In this document: positions 12,747 to 29,704 of the stretch, one piece after another | Layout: each line of letters starts with the position of its first letter | Numbering within the stretch: position 1 is the first letter of the stretch | From: Deltaproteobacteria bacterium | Lineage (GTDB): Bacteria; JAEEML01 | Direction of reading: 5' to 3' | DNA length: 39,240 nt | Assembly: GCA_016283195.1 (NCBI GenBank) | Contig: JAEEML010000077.1 | Span: 1 to 39,240 of the forward strand | The notes under the pieces: model-generated | What the model was told of the DNA's origin: nothing | Database searches by the model: none | Seen by the model: the letters and a program-made list of their open reading frames with translations, nothing else | Made by a program: the position numbers and the translations under genes

Positions 12747-12886
12747 CGCAGTTCCTCCGGCACAAAACAGCCGTTAATCATATAACAGTAAAAGCCAGTG
12801 CAAAACAATGGTACAAATTTATGATGGCCGCTTTTGTTAAGCTGTGCTAGTATGCGCCCGTTTCGTTGGGAAACCAAGGAGGAACT

Positions 12887-15805
12887 ATGTCTAAAAATAT
12901 AAAAAAACCGCGATTCGCCTTAATGCCATGGCTGGCCGGGCAGGTTACCAGCCGCGGTCCGGCGCTCTGCATAATAGCAGCTTTTATACTCATCACCCTC
13001 ATGTGCGCTTACCAAATGCGCCTTTTAAAAGATGAAAACGATATTCTGGCCTTTTTACCGGAAGGCAACCCGGAGGTAGATCTTTTTTACAATATTAACA
13101 ACGAGTTTGGCGGCCTTGATATGGCCCTCGTGGGCATTGAGTCTCCGGATATTTTCACGCCCGACTTTTTGCGCCGCCTCGATAAAACCTCAAAAGAACT
13201 GCGCGAGATTATCGGCCTCAATTCGGTAATGAGCCTCAGTAACGTCATCGACTACGAAGCCGACGAAGAACAAGGCGGCGTCACCATGGGCCCGCTTTTG
13301 AGCTCCATCCCCACTTCTCAGGAAGAGGCCTTGGCTTTTAAAGAAAAAGCTTTAAGCCGCGACCATTTAATCGGCAATCTGGTTTCCGAAGACGGCAACG
13401 CCATCGTCATTTACTGCTACCTGGCCTATAAGAGCGACCCTAATATTATCTCAGCCAAAATAAAGGATATTGTTAATAAAAACTTTCCGAACGAAGCCAA
13501 ATACTGGGGCGGTCAACCCTTTATTTCTTCTTATGTTTACCAGGTTACGCAAAACGATTTGCACAATCTAATTCCCTGGGCACTTTTAGCCATTGTCGCC
13601 ATTTTGATTATCTCTTTCCGCGATGCTTTCGGTTCACTATTGGTTCTGGGCACCACCGGCATGGGCGTCATCATCACCTTTGGCCTCATGGCCACTTTTA
13701 ACGCTCCTTACAATATTGTCATCAGCGCCATGCCCATCGTCCTCTTTGCCATCGGCAGCGCCTACAGCACTCACTTTATTTCGCGCTATTATAATTATGT
13801 TACCAAAATGGATAAAGATGCGGCCATTATTAAAGCCATGAAGACTGTCGGCCCCATCGTTATTGCTTCCGGCCTCACCACCATGGTGGGCCTCGGCAGC
13901 TTTATTTTTATGGATATCACCCCTTTAAGGAGCTTTGGTATTTACACCGCCCTGGGCATTTTTGCCAGCCTGGTGCTCTCGGTTACTTTTGTGCCGGCTG
14001 TGCTGCATTTGGGCAACTTCCGCCGCCACACCTCGAGCGATTCGCCTTTACAGCGCAAGCTCATGGTGGAACTTTGCGTCTTTGCCCGCCGCTTTAGAAA
14101 GCCGCTCATCGCCACTATGGCCGTAGTTACGGCTGTGGGCATTTTCTTTGCCGCCAAAGTGGATGTAAGTGCCGACCAAAGTTCATTTTTTGCCAAAGGC
14201 AGTTTGCCGGATTTAGCCGATGAGTTCATGCAAAAGAACTTTGGCGGCGCCGGCTTTGTTCAGCTGCTTGTTAATGGCCCCATGGATGACCCGACAGTTA
14301 TCCGCGAGATGCGCGCTCTTGGCGACAAAGTAATGGAAATTCCCGATGTTACCTCAGCTGTTTACATTGGTTCCGTGCTCTCGCAATCCAATGACGCCAT
14401 GTCGGGCTATAGCCGCGTGCCCGATAATCCGGCCCAGGCCAAATTGCTCTATGCCTTCTTCCAGGGCGACCCGACAGTCGGCCAGATGATCAACAGCAAA
14501 CACACCCGGGCCCTCATGCAAATAAGAGTGCAGTCTCTTAATTCCGAGCGCCAAAACGAAGTTTTAAAAGAGATAGAAAAGCTGACAGCTGGCATGAATG
14601 GCCAATATGCCGTCTATAAAAACGACACCGAGCGCAGCAAAAGCTATCTCTATGATATGACAGCAAAACACATAGCTGCCTTATCTCGTGAATATGGTGC
14701 TACCGCCAAACCTCTGGCCGATATTCGCGCTTCCATAGCCGCACCTTTTGCCCTGCCCACCGAAAAAGTGGTAGAGCGCCTGGCCGACTTTATGACTTCC
14801 GCCGAATGTGCTGTGCCGCTAGAAACCAGTGGCGAAGTAAATAATAAGAGCGTCGCCGCCGTCATCGGCACCCTCGGCGACACTTACACTCCGGAAGCTC
14901 TGGAAGCCAAAGTAAAAGAGGCTCTCGGCGAAGAGCGCTTTGCCGAAATGGGCGAAGATCTTTATCTTTCTATCGAAACACCCCTGGCCGAATACTGGCG
15001 CCTCGCCAAGGCCGAAGTAGTTACCGAGCGCCTTTTAAACGACAAAGTAATCGTCCTCGCCGCTAGTGCCAAAGGCCAGCGCCTGCCCAAGCAGCTCACC
15101 ATGACAGCCATGGATTTAACCACCGAAAGCGTGCTCATGCCCTACCATGAGGGCGATAACGTGGCCGCCGGCAGCCTCATTAATCTGGATGCCAGCGTCA
15201 GCGGTTTGCCGGTGATGTATCGCGGTCTCTCGCGCTCTGTAGCCGCCAATCAAGTAAAGAGTCTGGTTTTTGCCCTTTCCGGCGTCTTTTTGATTTTAAC
15301 CATTATTTTCGGCTCTTTTACCAGTGGCCTTTTAGCCACCTTCCCCACTCTGCTCACTTTGCTCTTCGTCTATGGAGCTATGGGCTTTTTGAATATCCGT
15401 TTGGATATCGGCACCTCCATGCTGGCCAGTATTATTCTCGGTATGGGCGTTGATTATGCTGTACACCTAACAGCCGCCTGGTATGCGCCGGAAAAAGAGC
15501 CGATTATCAAGTGCGCCGCCAATGCCGCCGACCAAGCCGGCCCCTCTATTTGGACTAATGCCATTATGATCTTTTGCGGTTTCTTTGTGCTCACTCTTGG
15601 CCAGGCAGTACCGCTTAAAAACGTTGGCGGACTGACGGCGGCAGCCATGCTGGTGGCCGCCCTGGTTACTTTCTTTGTTATCCCGATGCTTTCGCGGCGT
15701 CATGTCTATTATGAAGCCTCACACAGCGAGGATGAAGCTCTGCCCTCCGAGGCCGTAAATAACGTACTTTCAAAACTTGTGGAAAACCAAGCACATACGA
15801 GGTGA
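12887..15805 (+). CDS. RND superfamily / MMPL-type transporter
   Basis: Start MSKNIKKPRF after aaggaggaact. Two repeated halves with multi-TM blocks: first half IVLFAIGSAYSTHFISRYYN, second half SIILGMGVDYAVHLTAAWY (GxxxDY-type), plus large extracytoplasmic loops. Confidence 0.92.
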   Translation: MSKNIKKPRFALMPWLAGQVTSRGPALCIIAAFILITLMCAYQMRLLKDENDILAFLPEGNPEVDLFYNINNEFGGLDMALVGIESPDIFTPDFLRRLDKTSKELREIIGLNSVMSLSNVIDYEADEEQGGVTMGPLLSSIPTSQEEALAFKEKALSRDHLIGNLVSEDGNAIVIYCYLAYKSDPNIISAKIKDIVNKNFPNEAKYWGGQPFISSYVYQVTQNDLHNLIPWALLAIVAILIISFRDAFGSLLVLGTTGMGVIITFGLMATFNAPYNIVISAMPIVLFAIGSAYSTHFISRYYNYVTKMDKDAAIIKAMKTVGPIVIASGLTTMVGLGSFIFMDITPLRSFGIYTALGIFASLVLSVTFVPAVLHLGNFRRHTSSDSPLQRKLMVELCVFARRFRKPLIATMAVVTAVGIFFAAKVDVSADQSSFFAKGSLPDLADEFMQKNFGGAGFVQLLVNGPMDDPTVIREMRALGDKVMEIPDVTSAVYIGSVLSQSNDAMSGYSRVPDNPAQAKLLYAFFQGDPTVGQMINSKHTRALMQIRVQSLNSERQNEVLKEIEKLTAGMNGQYAVYKNDTERSKSYLYDMTAKHIAALSREYGATAKPLADIRASIAAPFALPTEKVVERLADFMTSAECAVPLETSGEVNNKSVAAVIGTLGDTYTPEALEAKVKEALGEERFAEMGEDLYLSIETPLAEYWRLAKAEVVTERLLNDKVIVLAASAKGQRLPKQLTMTAMDLTTESVLMPYHEGDNVAAGSLINLDASVSGLPVMYRGLSRSVAANQVKSLVFALSGVFLILTIIFGSFTSGLLATFPTLLTLLFVYGAMGFLNIRLDIGTSMLASIILGMGVDYAVHLTAAWYAPEKEPIIKCAANAADQAGPSIWTNAIMIFCGFFVLTLGQAVPLKNVGGLTAAAMLVAALVTFFVIPMLSRRHVYYEASHSEDEALPSEAVNNVLSKLVENQAHTR

Positions 15806-15808
15806 AAA

Positions 15809-16567
15809 ATGAAAATGCAAAACTTAATCCGTTCCCTACTCTGCTCTTCTCTGATGTTAACCGCTACCGTGCCGGCCCTGGCTGACGAACGTGGGGACAA
15901 AGCCCTGCAAGAACTCGACAAATCAATGACCGCCGCGCCAAAGCAGTATTTTATCTTTGATCTAATCACCAAAGATCCCGGCAAGGAGCCCAAAAAATTC
16001 ACTTACAAAGTTTATCTAAAAGGCAGCGACAGCCGGCGCATCGAGTTTTTGGAGCCCGGCGATCAAAGAGGCTTTAAAGTGCTCTTGACCGGCGACCTCA
16101 TGTACACTTATTTGCCCGCTTTTAACAAAGTGCGCCGCGTGGCCGGCCACGTGCGCGACCAGGGCTTCATGGGCACTGCCTACAGCTACGATGAGATTTC
16201 TATCGTTGTTTATTCCCCGGTTTTTGAGGGCAAATTCATCTCCGAAACCGATAAAACCATCACCGTCGAAGCAACCCGCCGCCCCGGCAAAGAAGGCGCA
16301 TTCCGCTTTCCTAAATTGGTGTTTGTCTTAGATAAAACTCACCACCAACCGCTGGAGATTGCCTACTACAATGAGCAGGGCGAAAAAGTAAAAACCGAAA
16401 CCCGCTCGCAGTATGAATGCAAAGGCGCTTTTTGTAACCCAAAATTAATGAAAATGGTTGACCACGGGCGCAACAATGTGGAAAGCTTAATGATCCGTAA
16501 AGAGTGGATTCCCAACCCTCAAATTGACGAAGACCTCTTTACAGTGCGCAGCTTACAAAAGCGCTAA
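15809..16567 (+). CDS. LolA-like outer-membrane lipoprotein-sorting protein
   Basis: Signal peptide LLCSSLMLTATVPALA. Motifs YLPAFNKVRRVAGHVRDQGFMGTAYSYDEI and LDKTHHQPLEIAYYNEQGEKVK typical of the LolA-like family found beside MMPL transporters. Confidence 0.85.
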   Translation: MKMQNLIRSLLCSSLMLTATVPALADERGDKALQELDKSMTAAPKQYFIFDLITKDPGKEPKKFTYKVYLKGSDSRRIEFLEPGDQRGFKVLLTGDLMYTYLPAFNKVRRVAGHVRDQGFMGTAYSYDEISIVVYSPVFEGKFISETDKTITVEATRRPGKEGAFRFPKLVFVLDKTHHQPLEIAYYNEQGEKVKTETRSQYECKGAFCNPKLMKMVDHGRNNVESLMIRKEWIPNPQIDEDLFTVRSLQKR

Positions 16568-19336: not shown

Positions 19337-19428
19337 AAATTGCCTTTCCACACCTTGATAAAAGATTAAGTGTGCACTAAATATTTGAGCGGATACCTTT
19401 TTGGCTATCACTTTAGGCGGAGGAAAAC

Positions 19429-20436
19429 ATGACTACAGCCGATCGCGATGTAAAATACCCTATAGAGCCCTCTTTTAAAGCATCTTTACTCATAACCGCC
19501 ATGGTGGCACTGGCCCCCATGATGGCCGCTTTTTTTTGGGCCGGCGGGCAAAAGGATTTATCGCGATTTTCTACTATTATTTTCGGCAATTGGATTTCTC
19601 CTTTTATCTTTTGGCTTTTTGCCGCCACCATCTTTTACCTATGGCGCAAAAAACGCCTTTTCATTGTAGAAAAAAGAGCTACAGGAACTCTTATAGATAT
19701 CTATAGAGAAATAACCAATAATCAAAGCGGTGAAGCGGAGCCGCAACCAAGTGCGAACGATCTATCCTCTGCCCTCCTGGCTAAGGAGCCCGATGCCAGC
19801 CCCGATAACCTTTTAATAAGCCGCTTAAAATTTCGGGAACAATCAGGATTAACAGGCTCAACGCTGACGGATCTTCTGGCTGAAAGCGAAGCTAGCGCCA
19901 TGGAGGGCTCTTATGCTATGGCCCATTTTTCTGTCTGGGCTATTCCCATTTTAGGCTTTATCGGCACTGTCTGGGGCATCAGCGGCGCCGTCTCCGGTTT
20001 TTCTCAGGCTATGTCCGGCCAAAGCAGCGCAGCCGGTATTTCCGAAGCTTTAAAAGAGACTCTGCCACTTGTTACAGCCAACCTGGCTACAGCTTTTGAC
20101 ACCACCTTTTTGGCCCTCATTTTGAGTTTGCCGCTTATGTATATGATAACCACCCTGGAAAAAGCGGAAAACAGCTATTTAAAGCAGCTCGCTGAATGGT
20201 CGGCACAAACGTTTTCCGGCCATTCAACTGCTAAAAGTGCAGATTTTATTCAAAATTCTCCGGTACAAAGCGCTCCCACTCAGGCAGCACCTATGGCGCA
20301 GTCTCCCCAAGCTCCGGTAAACCAGGAATTAAGCGCTTTAACCATGCAAATAGATGCCCTAAGGCGCACCATGCAGGATTTAAGCCAATTATTATTTGCA
20401 CTTAAAGAACAGGAAATTGGGAGCCCCAAATTATGA
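19429..20436 (+). CDS. MotA/TolQ/ExbB-family proton channel protein
   Basis: IPILGFIGTVWGISGAVSGF (LGxxGTVxGI signature), LPLVTANLATAFDTTFLALILSLPLMYM (TolQ/ExbB C-terminal TM pair), two additional N-terminal TMs. RBS ggcggagg upstream. Confidence 0.85.
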   Translation: MTTADRDVKYPIEPSFKASLLITAMVALAPMMAAFFWAGGQKDLSRFSTIIFGNWISPFIFWLFAATIFYLWRKKRLFIVEKRATGTLIDIYREITNNQSGEAEPQPSANDLSSALLAKEPDASPDNLLISRLKFREQSGLTGSTLTDLLAESEASAMEGSYAMAHFSVWAIPILGFIGTVWGISGAVSGFSQAMSGQSSAAGISEALKETLPLVTANLATAFDTTFLALILSLPLMYMITTLEKAENSYLKQLAEWSAQTFSGHSTAKSADFIQNSPVQSAPTQAAPMAQSPQAPVNQELSALTMQIDALRRTMQDLSQLLFALKEQEIGSPKL

Positions 20437-21041
20437 AACGCCGCCGGCGCTTAAAAGTTCCTGCCCTGGATCTCTTCCCTTTTTTAAGCATTTTTTTGTG
20501 CATTATGGGCATATTAGCCTTTTTGGAAACACTGATGGCTACTGCTTCCGGCAAAGCCTCAAAAATAGAAATTAAGCCGGGAAAGTTTTTGCAGCAGGCT
20601 ACGCCGTACCAAATATTCTGCCTGCCTGACGGCCTGGTAATTCTGCCGCCGGTGAGCGAAATAAAAGCCCTGGCCGCTACTTTGAAAAGCCCCAAAGATC
20701 GCCAGAGAGTTACAGCCATTGCCGAGAAGCGCGATAAAGTTTTGGCGGGATATAATCCGCATGAGCGCCATAAGGGCCGCCTTTTAAGCGATGAAGAAAT
20801 ATCTGCTCTCTTGGAAGAGATGGTGGAAATAAACAATATCGCCAAAAATAATGACAGCTTATATGAAGAAACTCTGCTTTTTGGCATTTACCCGGCAGGC
20901 AGTGCGCATTTTCACAATTTTCGCCGCGTAATGTATGATACTCGCTTTGAAGGGCTAAAAAAAGGTTATGAAATACTCGATAGCGACTGGCAATTTGTCA
21001 TTCCTAGTGCCGCAGGCCAAACAGCGGAGGGTGCGCTATGA
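20433..21041 (+). CDS. ExbD/TolR-like single-pass protein 1 (divergent)
   Basis: Short basic N-terminus MKRRRRLKVPA, then TM with Asp at its start (LDLFPFLSIFLCIMGILAFL), then periplasmic domain. ATGA overlap with the ExbB-like gene. Confidence 0.65.
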   Translation: MKRRRRLKVPALDLFPFLSIFLCIMGILAFLETLMATASGKASKIEIKPGKFLQQATPYQIFCLPDGLVILPPVSEIKALAATLKSPKDRQRVTAIAEKRDKVLAGYNPHERHKGRLLSDEEISALLEEMVEINNIAKNNDSLYEETLLFGIYPAGSAHFHNFRRVMYDTRFEGLKKGYEILDSDWQFVIPSAAGQTAEGAL

Positions 21042-21652
21042 AAATCCGCATGAATTTGGATTCATTAACCGATTTAGTCTCCAATTCCATCGGCATGCTC
21101 ATTCTCTTTTCCCTCATTACTCTGACACAAAACGAGCAGCAAGTTTATAAAATAGAAGTTCCGGTGGAGCACATGACCAAACTGGCGCCAAAATTTTTCA
21201 TCTGCCGGCACAATAAGATTATCCCCCTGGAACTTGGCTGGCTTTTCCAGCGCAGCATGGCCCACATCGCCCAGATTCAGGACGAAAACTGGTTTGACCT
21301 CGGAATCGGTAATTTAAAGGGGCGTATTCCTCTGCGGAAAGGTCTGGTCATCGATTCACCTGATACCTCCTCATGGGAAGATGGGGAGCTGATTGAGCAT
21401 CCCCGCAGTCAAATTCATAAAGCACTCTCAGAAATTGACCCCAATATTAATTTTGCCTTTTTTTTCGTCTATGACGATCCGCAAAACGATAAATATGCCG
21501 GTAGCGGTTTTGAGGCTTACCGTAAAGCGCGCGCTTTTTTACAGGAGCACGGCGTAAAATCCGGTTGGGTACCGGTTTCCAAAAACAATCCGCCACATAT
21601 TTGTTTCTGGAGTGATGTTTTGGAGTGTCGCTTCCGTCCATCGCATCTGTGA
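21038..21652 (+). CDS. ExbD/TolR-like single-pass protein 2 (divergent)
   Basis: MKIRMNLDSLTDLVSNSIGMLILFSLITL: N-terminal TM with Asp. Periplasmic domain with ExbD-like segment FAFFFVYDDP...GFEAYRKARAFLQEHGVKSGWVPV. ATGA overlap with the preceding gene. Confidence 0.65.
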   Translation: MKIRMNLDSLTDLVSNSIGMLILFSLITLTQNEQQVYKIEVPVEHMTKLAPKFFICRHNKIIPLELGWLFQRSMAHIAQIQDENWFDLGIGNLKGRIPLRKGLVIDSPDTSSWEDGELIEHPRSQIHKALSEIDPNINFAFFFVYDDPQNDKYAGSGFEAYRKARAFLQEHGVKSGWVPVSKNNPPHICFWSDVLECRFRPSHL

Positions 21653-21659
21653 GGCCCAA

Positions 21660-23453
21660 ATGGAGCAAAATTTTACTTATTTAAAAAGCATTTTTAATCT
21701 CCCGGCCGATGCTCCGCTGGAAGATATTTTGGCCAAACTGAATGAAGTGCAAAAGGAGAATAAAGAACCGTGGTTCACTCTGCTGCGCGGCGAGGTTTTA
21801 GAAGAATTAAAAGAGCAAAGCGCAGCTAAAAATGCCTATAAAGAAACTAATAACCTGGTTAGCCAAAGAATAATTACCCGCCTTAAAGCAGTAAGTCAGG
21901 CTTTAAAAGAATTAAGTACTTCATTAAGGCGGCAGCTCATTTTTGCTTCAATCGCCACAGCTCTGGCCATTGCCATGCCGCTTATTTTGCTGTCGGCCAA
22001 TAAAGTGATGGAATCGGGATTATCCATAAAAGATAACCACTACACTCTGACAAGCACCAGCGCGGCAGATGAGCTTGATGGGCTCAATTTTGCCCGCTGG
22101 TTCTATGAACTTACGATCGCGGAAAATGGCCCGCAAAATGATAACGCTAAAGCCGGACACCTCTCTTTTGAGCTGGGCGGCGGTTCTCAAGGCGGCGGTT
22201 CTCAGGGCGGCGGTTCTCAAGGTAACACTACTCAAGGTCCAGCCGGAGGCAGCAATCAGGGCAGCGCTCAAAACGGCACTTCTCCGGCTACGGCCGGAGA
22301 CAGCTCAAAAGGCAGCTCTTCGGGCAACACTGCTCCGGATACGGTCGGCGGCGGCTTTAAAAGCGACAGTGCTCCTGGCAGCACTCCTCCGGCTACGGCC
22401 GGGAGTTCCGACAAAGCGGGAAAAGGTAAAACACGCGGCGATACACTGAAATTTACTGCCCGCCACACCATATCCCCTCCCTTTGTCTGCCCGGAGGTTG
22501 AACTCCTTTGCACCAAGGAAGAAGTGCCAGACTTAAATAAACCATGGCGAACACAACTCATGGATCTTTTTCACCTGGATAATATTTATTTTTCCTACAG
22601 CGAAAATTGTGCGGCCATGAGCCATAATATAGATGTTTTCACATCCGGCTATGGTTGGCACCTAGCAGAGCGCGAAGTTAAATGCGATGTCGAAGCCAGA
22701 GTTGCCAGCTGTTTTTACAAAGCTAATGAATATCAAAAAGCGGCCGAACACGCCAGAAGAGCCATCTGTTCCGGCCTAAACGAAGCCTTGGCGGCAATGA
22801 ATATTTTGGCCACTATAGCCAAAAAGAATAACGATAAAGAGTTGGTAAAACGCTATATAACCTGCATGGATCGCTTTAGCACTTATTACCAAAACACTAT
22901 GACGGTAAACGCTTACACCGCTTATAACCACCTGGCTGCTGGGGCTTACGCTTGGGAACTGAATAATGACCTTGTAGCCCTCGTCCGCCATACTGATTTG
23001 GCGGAGAAAATACTGCCCAAAGCGCCAAAAACTGTGTTTCTCGAAATGGTTGGCAGCATGATTAAATACCATAAAATGATGATTTCCGCCATTAAAGGTG
23101 AAAGCGACAACAAATTTTATCCCCTCATGCACAACTCTATGAATACTCCTTGGAATGACGAACGCGATCTATTGCATACACACATTTACAACTTCACCCG
23201 CCTAATGCTACGGCGCGATCATAAAGAAGCCCAAAAGAGCTTTGAACAGATACTGGCCCGCTATCGCGATATGGCCGAATACGACGAAAAAGAGCCCTTT
23301 ATGGGCCTAAACAGTCTAGTAAAAAACAGCAAGTCGCTCTCCAAAGAAGAAGCGCAGCAAATGGCTGCCTTTTTCCAAATACTAGACGGCAAAAAAGATG
23401 GTAGCAAAGTGCAAAAAATGGAAAAAATAGGCCAGTTTATTAAAAGCCTTTGA
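21660..23453 (+). CDS. Bitopic protein: N-terminal cytoplasmic helical region, one TM, Gly/Ser/Thr repeat linker, C-terminal helical (TPR-like) periplasmic domain
   Basis: TM RRQLIFASIATALAIAMPLILLSANKV; linker GGGSQGGGSQGGGSQG...; C-terminal helices such as VASCFYKANEYQKAAEHARRAICSGLNEALAAMNILATIAKKNND resemble TPR. Start codon 8 nt after the previous stop. Confidence 0.65.
   Translation: MEQNFTYLKSIFNLPADAPLEDILAKLNEVQKENKEPWFTLLRGEVLEELKEQSAAKNAYKETNNLVSQRIITRLKAVSQALKELSTSLRRQLIFASIATALAIAMPLILLSANKVMESGLSIKDNHYTLTSTSAADELDGLNFARWFYELTIAENGPQNDNAKAGHLSFELGGGSQGGGSQGGGSQGNTTQGPAGGSNQGSAQNGTSPATAGDSSKGSSSGNTAPDTVGGGFKSDSAPGSTPPATAGSSDKAGKGKTRGDTLKFTARHTISPPFVCPEVELLCTKEEVPDLNKPWRTQLMDLFHLDNIYFSYSENCAAMSHNIDVFTSGYGWHLAEREVKCDVEARVASCFYKANEYQKAAEHARRAICSGLNEALAAMNILATIAKKNNDKELVKRYITCMDRFSTYYQNTMTVNAYTAYNHLAAGAYAWELNNDLVALVRHTDLAEKILPKAPKTVFLEMVGSMIKYHKMMISAIKGESDNKFYPLMHNSMNTPWNDERDLLHTHIYNFTRLMLRRDHKEAQKSFEQILARYRDMAEYDEKEPFMGLNSLVKNSKSLSKEEAQQMAAFFQILDGKKDGSKVQKMEKIGQFIKSL
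22176..22220 (+). repeat. 15-bp in-frame tandem repeat (3 copies) encoding GGGSQ
   Basis: ggcggcggttctca(a/g) repeated exactly three times; followed by looser repeats of about 51 bp encoding (N/G)(G/N/S)T(S/A/P)P(A/D)T(A/V)G... Confidence 0.9.
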
Positions 23454-29324: not shown

Positions 29325-29704
29325 CGATCCCAAAATGGCGATACTGATTTTGTTGAAAAATATGGCTGCATTATACTTGGGAAGATGCCATGAAAGTGTG
29401 CCCGGCCGGGTGGCATTTACCATCCCAAAAAGGACTAAATAGCTTGGCAAATTTGGGTGCCAAAGCTCTCTGGGATTCCAGCTTTGCCGGTGGCGATGAT
29501 CCTTATGGCTTCGCGGCCTTGCCCGTCGGCGCCTACTACATCTACACCAAAAGCTACTACCATTTCGGGAAGAGCGCCTACTTCTGGTCGAAAACGAGCG
29601 CCGATGATTACAACGCATACTACATGAACATTAGCACCAATGTGCTCATATCCAGCTCAGGTACGACGTACTACACCTACTCGGTTCGCTGCGTCAAGAA
29701 CTAG
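29325..29704 (+). pseudogene. FISUMP-domain protein relic (5' truncated, one frameshift)
   Basis: Downstream frame MKVCPAGWHLPSQKGL...YFWSKTSADDYNAYYM...YSVRCVKN* is a FISUMP C-terminal half. Upstream frame reads (Y)RSQNGDTDFVEKYGCI and resumes as YTWEDAMKVCPAGWHLP only after a 1-nt shift near 29370-29374. An in-frame stop lies just before YRSQ. Confidence 0.75.

Follow-up and report, generated by a model that had tools for sequence, protein, structure and literature searches.

Channels of the MotA/TolQ/ExbB class, together with an aspartate-bearing partner that has a single transmembrane (TM) helix, turn ion flow into force, and current 5:2 motor models hold two identical axle chains with an ion-carrying Asp on each. 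A gene cluster in a Deltaproteobacteria bacterium (JAEEML01; assembly GCA_016283195.1, contig JAEEML010000077.1) raises the question of whether such a motor could work with that Asp on one of two unlike chains. The cluster lies in a stretch of 39,240 nucleotides (nt; positions 1 to 39,240 of the contig, forward strand), the whole of which is called the window here. It consists of four open reading frames on the + strand, G1 to G4, encoding 335, 202, 204, and 597 amino acids (aa; G4 counted from its ATG). We found that G1, G2, and G3 form a real and conserved set, undescribed as far as we could find, and that G2 and G3 differ at the ion-carrying site. We lean toward the view that G1–G3 are an ion-motive-force-driven envelope motor of the pentamer-plus-axle (5:2) kind, with a heteromeric axle carrying one ion site. 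The genes are as follows (pLDDT, predicted local distance difference test).

19429..20436, + strand: G1, MotA/TolQ/ExbB-type channel subunit, 335 aa (PF01618, 34.8 bits; core conserved in 81 sequences)
20433..21041, + strand: G2, bitopic stator-like subunit without the ion-carrying Asp, 202 aa (G3 paralogue; model pLDDT 85)
21038..21652, + strand: G3, bitopic stator-like subunit with the Asp kept, 204 aa (model pLDDT 83)
21660..23453, + strand: G4, bitopic protein, 597 aa, with a cytoplasmic TPR-like part, a TM segment at residues 93-111, and a periplasmic Cys-rich domain (orthologues in Thiotrichaceae and Leucothrix)

Relatives of the locus were the best 80 of 532 that a two-sequence G1 alignment picked up across 85,488 species genomes. 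The best 15 came from Thiotrichaceae, Leucothrix, and Thiomargarita-type bacteria, with 36-40% identity across nearly the full G1; the others, from Planctomycetota, Verrucomicrobiota, Kiritimatiellae, Myxococcota, SAR324, and further groups, aligned mainly over the channel core. Among loci with at least 2.5 kilobases after G1, the window included, G2 followed G1 in 62 of 62 and G3 was present as well in 56 of 62, so that the G1-G2-G3 part of the gene order noted in the preliminary description of this DNA is conserved in relatives.

Profile alignment placed 'LFPFLSI' of G2 over 'VTPLVDV' of ExbD and 'NLDSLTDLV' of G3 over 'NVTPLVDVM', and the ion-carrying Asp therefore corresponds to D12 in G3 and S19 in G2; because the alignment scores were weak, this register rests on the common helix start and the motif, not on significance.

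20487..20489, + strand: G2 S19, aligned with the ion-carrying Asp of ExbD/TolR by profile alignment (Ser 65, Ala 5, Asp 7 of 77)
21071..21073, + strand: G3 D12, aligned with the ion-carrying Asp of ExbD/TolR (invariant in the G3 alignment; register by profile alignment)

Ser or Ala thus occupied the site in 70 of the 77 G2 sequences; the Ala in five of them was assigned by eye, and one unrelated reverse-frame match was left out. Every G3 examined had Asp there, 52 by automatic pattern and the other 12 by eye. A further set from the Leucothrix order gave the same picture, with Ser in 25/25 G2s and Asp in 25/25 G3s. Since G3 keeps the Asp and most G2s have Ser or Ala, the pair is asymmetric, unlike AglQ/AglS, and at the level of sequence this asymmetry is demonstrated. 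The preliminary description had placed an Asp near the TM start of both stators. This holds for G3 D12, but the Asp that it noticed in G2, D13, is not conserved and lies six residues off the ExbD position. In the G2 tree, the window sequence grouped with 15 Thiotrichaceae-type sequences, and the Asp/non-Asp state switched at least four times. Two G1-G2-G3 triplets were also recovered in unrelated genomes by profile alone, without the peptide pattern, one with Ser/Asp (L168) and one with Asp/Asp (L167).

By sequence comparison, G2 and G3 are distant paralogues. Profiles of the wider families matched each other at 99.4% probability over the whole proteins and at 95.7% over the periplasmic parts, with a weaker result for a narrow set; the loose C-terminal similarity proposed earlier is therefore real. 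Confident AlphaFold2 models were obtained for both (pLDDT 85 and predicted template modelling score, pTM, 0.69 for G2; pLDDT 83 and pTM 0.72 for G3). Each model has one N-terminal hydrophobic helix (residues 15-38 in G2, 7-32 in G3), and both share the order strand-strand-helix-(insert)-strand-helix-strand, which we take to be compatible with the ExbD/TolR fold.

The Asp-bearing G3 must either pair with the Asp-less G2 or work without it. If it worked without G2, a G3 homodimer would form an axle with two Asp, and G2 would be an accessory bound to the flank of the G1 ring, as suggested by its lack of Asp in 70/77 relatives and by the precedent of TonB and TolA, which bind the motor edge via one TM helix (PMC12204202). 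Yet the two proteins are paralogous, share one layout, and have related periplasmic domains, G2 is a steadier partner of G1 than G3 is (62/62 vs 56/62), and the presence of Asp in both subunits in some lineages suits two axle chains. We thus regard a G3-only axle as rather unlikely.

The composition named in the preliminary description was that of AglRQS, the gliding and sporulation motor of Myxococcus xanthus. One TolQ/ExbB-type channel gene followed by two stator-type genes is indeed common to both, and AglRQS is known to perform proton-driven envelope work. The likeness stops at the stators: AglQ and AglS both carry the conserved Asp, with hetero- versus homodimerization stated as unknown (PMC9389320), and both match PF02472 (PMC3169522), whereas G2 has S19 and neither G2 nor G3 matched this Pfam family at E values up to 1. 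An ordinary symmetric motor like AglRQS, in which both ExbD-type stators conduct, would account for the gene composition and order and for the seven relatives with Asp in both subunits. Given the Ser or Ala in G2 of the window and of most relatives, together with the stator differences from AglQ/AglS, we consider it very improbable. No Agl/Glt counterpart of G4 or of G5, a fifth gene described below, was identified, the glt genes not having been searched for.

A second case of asymmetry came from a separate family of tandem ExbD genes, in which the first stator has Asn and the second Asp (L134, L142, L148, and L149); in other tandem pairs, both stators have Asp. The window's own genome holds such a set on contig C131, like G1–G3 in having an ExbB gene with two ExbD-like genes, but its stators are PF02472 members and hence belong to a different family. 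There (L134:3999-7407), the ExbB, ExbD, and ExbD genes are followed by two others, one for a protein of 466 aa that weakly matches TonB_C and one that is kinase-like. Clusters described from the Planctomycetes-Verrucomicrobia-Chlamydiae (PVC) group (Mol Biol Evol 2025, PMC12204202) combine tolQ-like, TPR, and vWA genes with a pair of unlike tolR-like genes. They resemble our loci in the tolQ-like gene, the unlike pair, and the TPR gene, and the phyla are partly the same; however, a motif scan placed a true-looking vWA-type motif near only 1/81 of our loci, upstream, in L098, and the section consulted of that report does not mention loss of the Asp in one partner. In the open-access literature, we found no account of an Asp-less stator partner or of G4 and G5.

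Several observations weigh against a motor with a G2-G3 axle. The 80 sampled loci are a biased set because a G1-derived pattern was used to find them. In six loci (L056, L058, and four of Gimesia type), G1-G2 occurs without an adjacent G3, and in some genomes G2-like pairs occur without an adjacent G1. In a Foldseek search of the G2 and G3 models against the PDB, ExbD, TolR, and MotB were absent from the best 50 matches, and none reached E ≤ 0.001. When periplasmic profiles were compared with 18 ExbD/TolR sequences, the scores of all four sets fell inside the spread given by 60 column shuffles. Because of these last two results, we label G2 and G3 stator-like and keep them out of PF02472: of the earlier term 'ExbD-like', the topology, operon position, and Asp register stand, and the family, Foldseek, and periplasmic profile matches do not. 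Weak resolvase-like and phosphatase-like Foldseek matches were discarded as insignificant, and searches of G2 and G3 sequence profiles against PDB chains returned essentially coiled-coil matches.

G2 was found at E ≤ 1e-10 in 8 of 393 broadly drawn genomes (about 2%), counting the window's own, to which none of the set is close; the L167 and L168 triplets come from two of the eight. G2-like pairs in three genomes (L162 in G328, L164 in G190, and L163 in G033) adjoin a HEAT-like lipoprotein gene, with the channel gene not adjacent; where both members were seen, the first has Ser or Ala and the second Asp at the ion site.

The channel subunit itself matches MotA_ExbB (PF01618) above the curated Pfam cut-off of 22.9 bits. 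Its assignment as an ExbB/TolQ-type protein thus stands as to family, but hydropathy gave four hydrophobic segments, not only the TolQ-like set. Two Thr residues of the ion path lie in its TM helices, and one of them has an acidic position nearby.

19966..19968, + strand: G1 T180, Thr of the GFIGTV motif (invariant across the 81 aligned family members; Thr also in the TolQ of the same genome)
20098..20100, + strand: G1 D224, acidic, two residues before the invariant TM Thr T226 (Asp 74, Glu 2, Asn 5 of 81; Leu in the TolQ of the same genome)

The ion-path Thr residues T180 and T226 are both invariant (81/81) and align with the TolQ Thr residues. Position 224 is acidic in 76/81 sequences, with Asn in the other 5; by its place in the sequence, D224 is two residues away from T226 and need not face the pore. 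Like ExbBD and TolQR, the system has a channel of this family and a G3 Asp in the same register. It differs from them in having two stator-like genes instead of one, in its unmatched periplasmic domains, and in an operon without TonB or TolA. A separate tolQ-tolR-tolA cluster is present on contig C8 of the same genome, TolA, TolB, and Pal were not found among the operon neighbors tested, and no TonB, TolB, or Pal domain was detected there either; this bears out the earlier statement that the locus is neither Tol-Pal nor Ton.

The four genes form one coupled unit, as first described: ATGA overlaps join G1-G2 and G2-G3, and 7 nt separate the G3 stop from the G4 ATG. We took ATG 21660, not GTG 21612, as the start of G4 because the starts of its relatives fit the ATG. 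G2, G3, and G4 had no match among Pfam, NCBIfam, or PADLOC families. The further elements of the operon are as follows.

19418..19428, + strand: purine-rich ribosome-binding stretch upstream of G1 (by reading the sequence)
21936..21992, + strand: G4 TM segment (hydropathy peak 2.51 at residues 93-111)
22170..22430, + strand: G4 Gly/Ser/Thr-rich linker (not kept in relatives, by alignment)

In G4, 92 cytoplasmic residues precede one TM segment, and a Gly/Ser/Thr linker then leads to a C-terminal domain that contains seven Cys. The long Gly/Ser linker is confined to the window's genome, linkers in relatives being short. Six of the seven periplasmic Cys are invariant in 11 sequences, and the Cys-rich domain is probably disulfide-bonded. 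The layout proposed earlier was right as to the cytoplasmic part, the single TM, the linker, and the Cys, but not as to the TPR-like region: support for TPR comes from the cytoplasmic N-terminus of G4 in relatives (Pfam TPR_19, 2.4e-6), not from the periplasmic side.

The set also extends beyond the four coupled genes, since a fifth gene, G5, belongs to it. In Thiotrichaceae, the operons run past G3 into G4 and then G5. In the window's genome, the G5 homologue lies on contig C8 directly behind tolQ-tolR-tolA (L133:7757-11529), and in Leucothrix, G4 and G5 occur together at one locus and G1–G3 at another. The Leucothrix order was represented by 61 genomes: G5 and G2 occurred together in 24, G2 alone in one, and neither in 36 (Fisher 4e-16, uncorrected for relatedness and inflated by shared descent). 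We assign G4 and G5 to the system because their co-occurrence with it persists despite repeated unlinking, which is the best evidence for their membership. Both are present in the window's genome (G000), and neither was found in any of the 392 other broadly drawn genomes. G5 had no Pfam match; it contains one TM region, an HExxH motif invariant in 9/9 sequences, and E-x-x-A-Y-L downstream, features that suggest a membrane-anchored, zincin-like zinc metalloprotease. G4 and G5 are thus two further envelope proteins outside assigned families. At three Leucothrix-type loci (L155, L156, and L157), G4-G5 lies beside pilT/pilU-type ATPase-like and priA-like genes, as judged from sequence and not by profile.

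The sizeable domains of G4 on either side of the membrane could also fit a non-rotating device, a gated ion channel or trans-envelope sensor in which G2 and G3 gate G1 and G4 links the cytoplasmic and periplasmic states. The operon neighbors tested lack a TonB/TolA-like transducer, and the periplasmic domains of G2 and G3 are not recognizably ExbD, both of which agree with such a device. But the channel signature, the conserved Thr residues, and the G3 Asp are those of force-generating relatives, and we judge a sensor or gate to be improbable.

By analogy with those relatives, G1–G3 would generate force, and we infer a G2-G3 heterodimer and rotation. Five G1 subunits would surround one G2-G3 heterodimer, an obligate axle whose ion site, on G3, would be the only one provided that the two proteins do pair. 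In each turn, a G1 subunit would then encounter a loadable site half as many times as it would in a symmetric motor, and G2, lacking the Asp, may be specialized in anchoring or coupling. The stronger claim, that this is an obligate 5:1:1 motor whose single-Asp heterodimeric axle has been stable over deep divergence, with the Asn/Asp family as a parallel, is plausible, though we stop short of calling it probable; if true, two-site alternation would not be needed by this motor class. As the Asp was lost from one stator over wide divergence and the genes remain together, the questions of heterodimer or homodimer and of one or two sites are directly testable here.

G4 and G5 would complete the system in Thiotrichaceae-type bacteria and in the lineage to which the window belongs. 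The motor may act on the envelope or on peptidoglycan, with G4 as a candidate coupler or regulator and G5 as a candidate protease or remodelling factor, the most tentative part of the proposal. In Leucothrix, a Peptidase_S13 (PBP4-type) gene lies directly upstream of G1–G3, and this neighbor, together with the envelope location predicted for G4 and G5, hints at the process that is powered; a point against this peptidoglycan link is that it draws on neighbors in a single genus. Gliding is possible, since the Thiotrichaceae relatives include gliders.

ZorA and ZorB of the Zorya anti-phage system likewise combine an ExbB-type channel with a stator, which would allow a Zorya-like role. However, PADLOC, which covers ZorA/ZorB, matched none of the four proteins, and many neighbors in Thiotrichaceae and Leucothrix look like housekeeping genes; a defense function is therefore hardly credible. 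Our search for viral contigs with G3 found none.

Around the Myxococcota-type loci (L039, L041, L081, L082, and similar), a gene for a 695-aa UvrD-like helicase lies downstream of G1–G3, and a conserved gene for 410-470 aa lies upstream in divergent orientation. The UvrD-like gene was set aside as a system member, being confined to this group of loci. In the window, an Rfam scan gave no match. At 12866-16567, a gene for an MMPL transporter (resistance-nodulation-division, RND) precedes a LolA-like gene for lipoprotein sorting, upstream of an acyl-CoA-synthetase-like AMP-binding gene and the operon, and a short protein with a Fibrobacter succinogenes major domain (PF09603) is encoded at 29390-29704.

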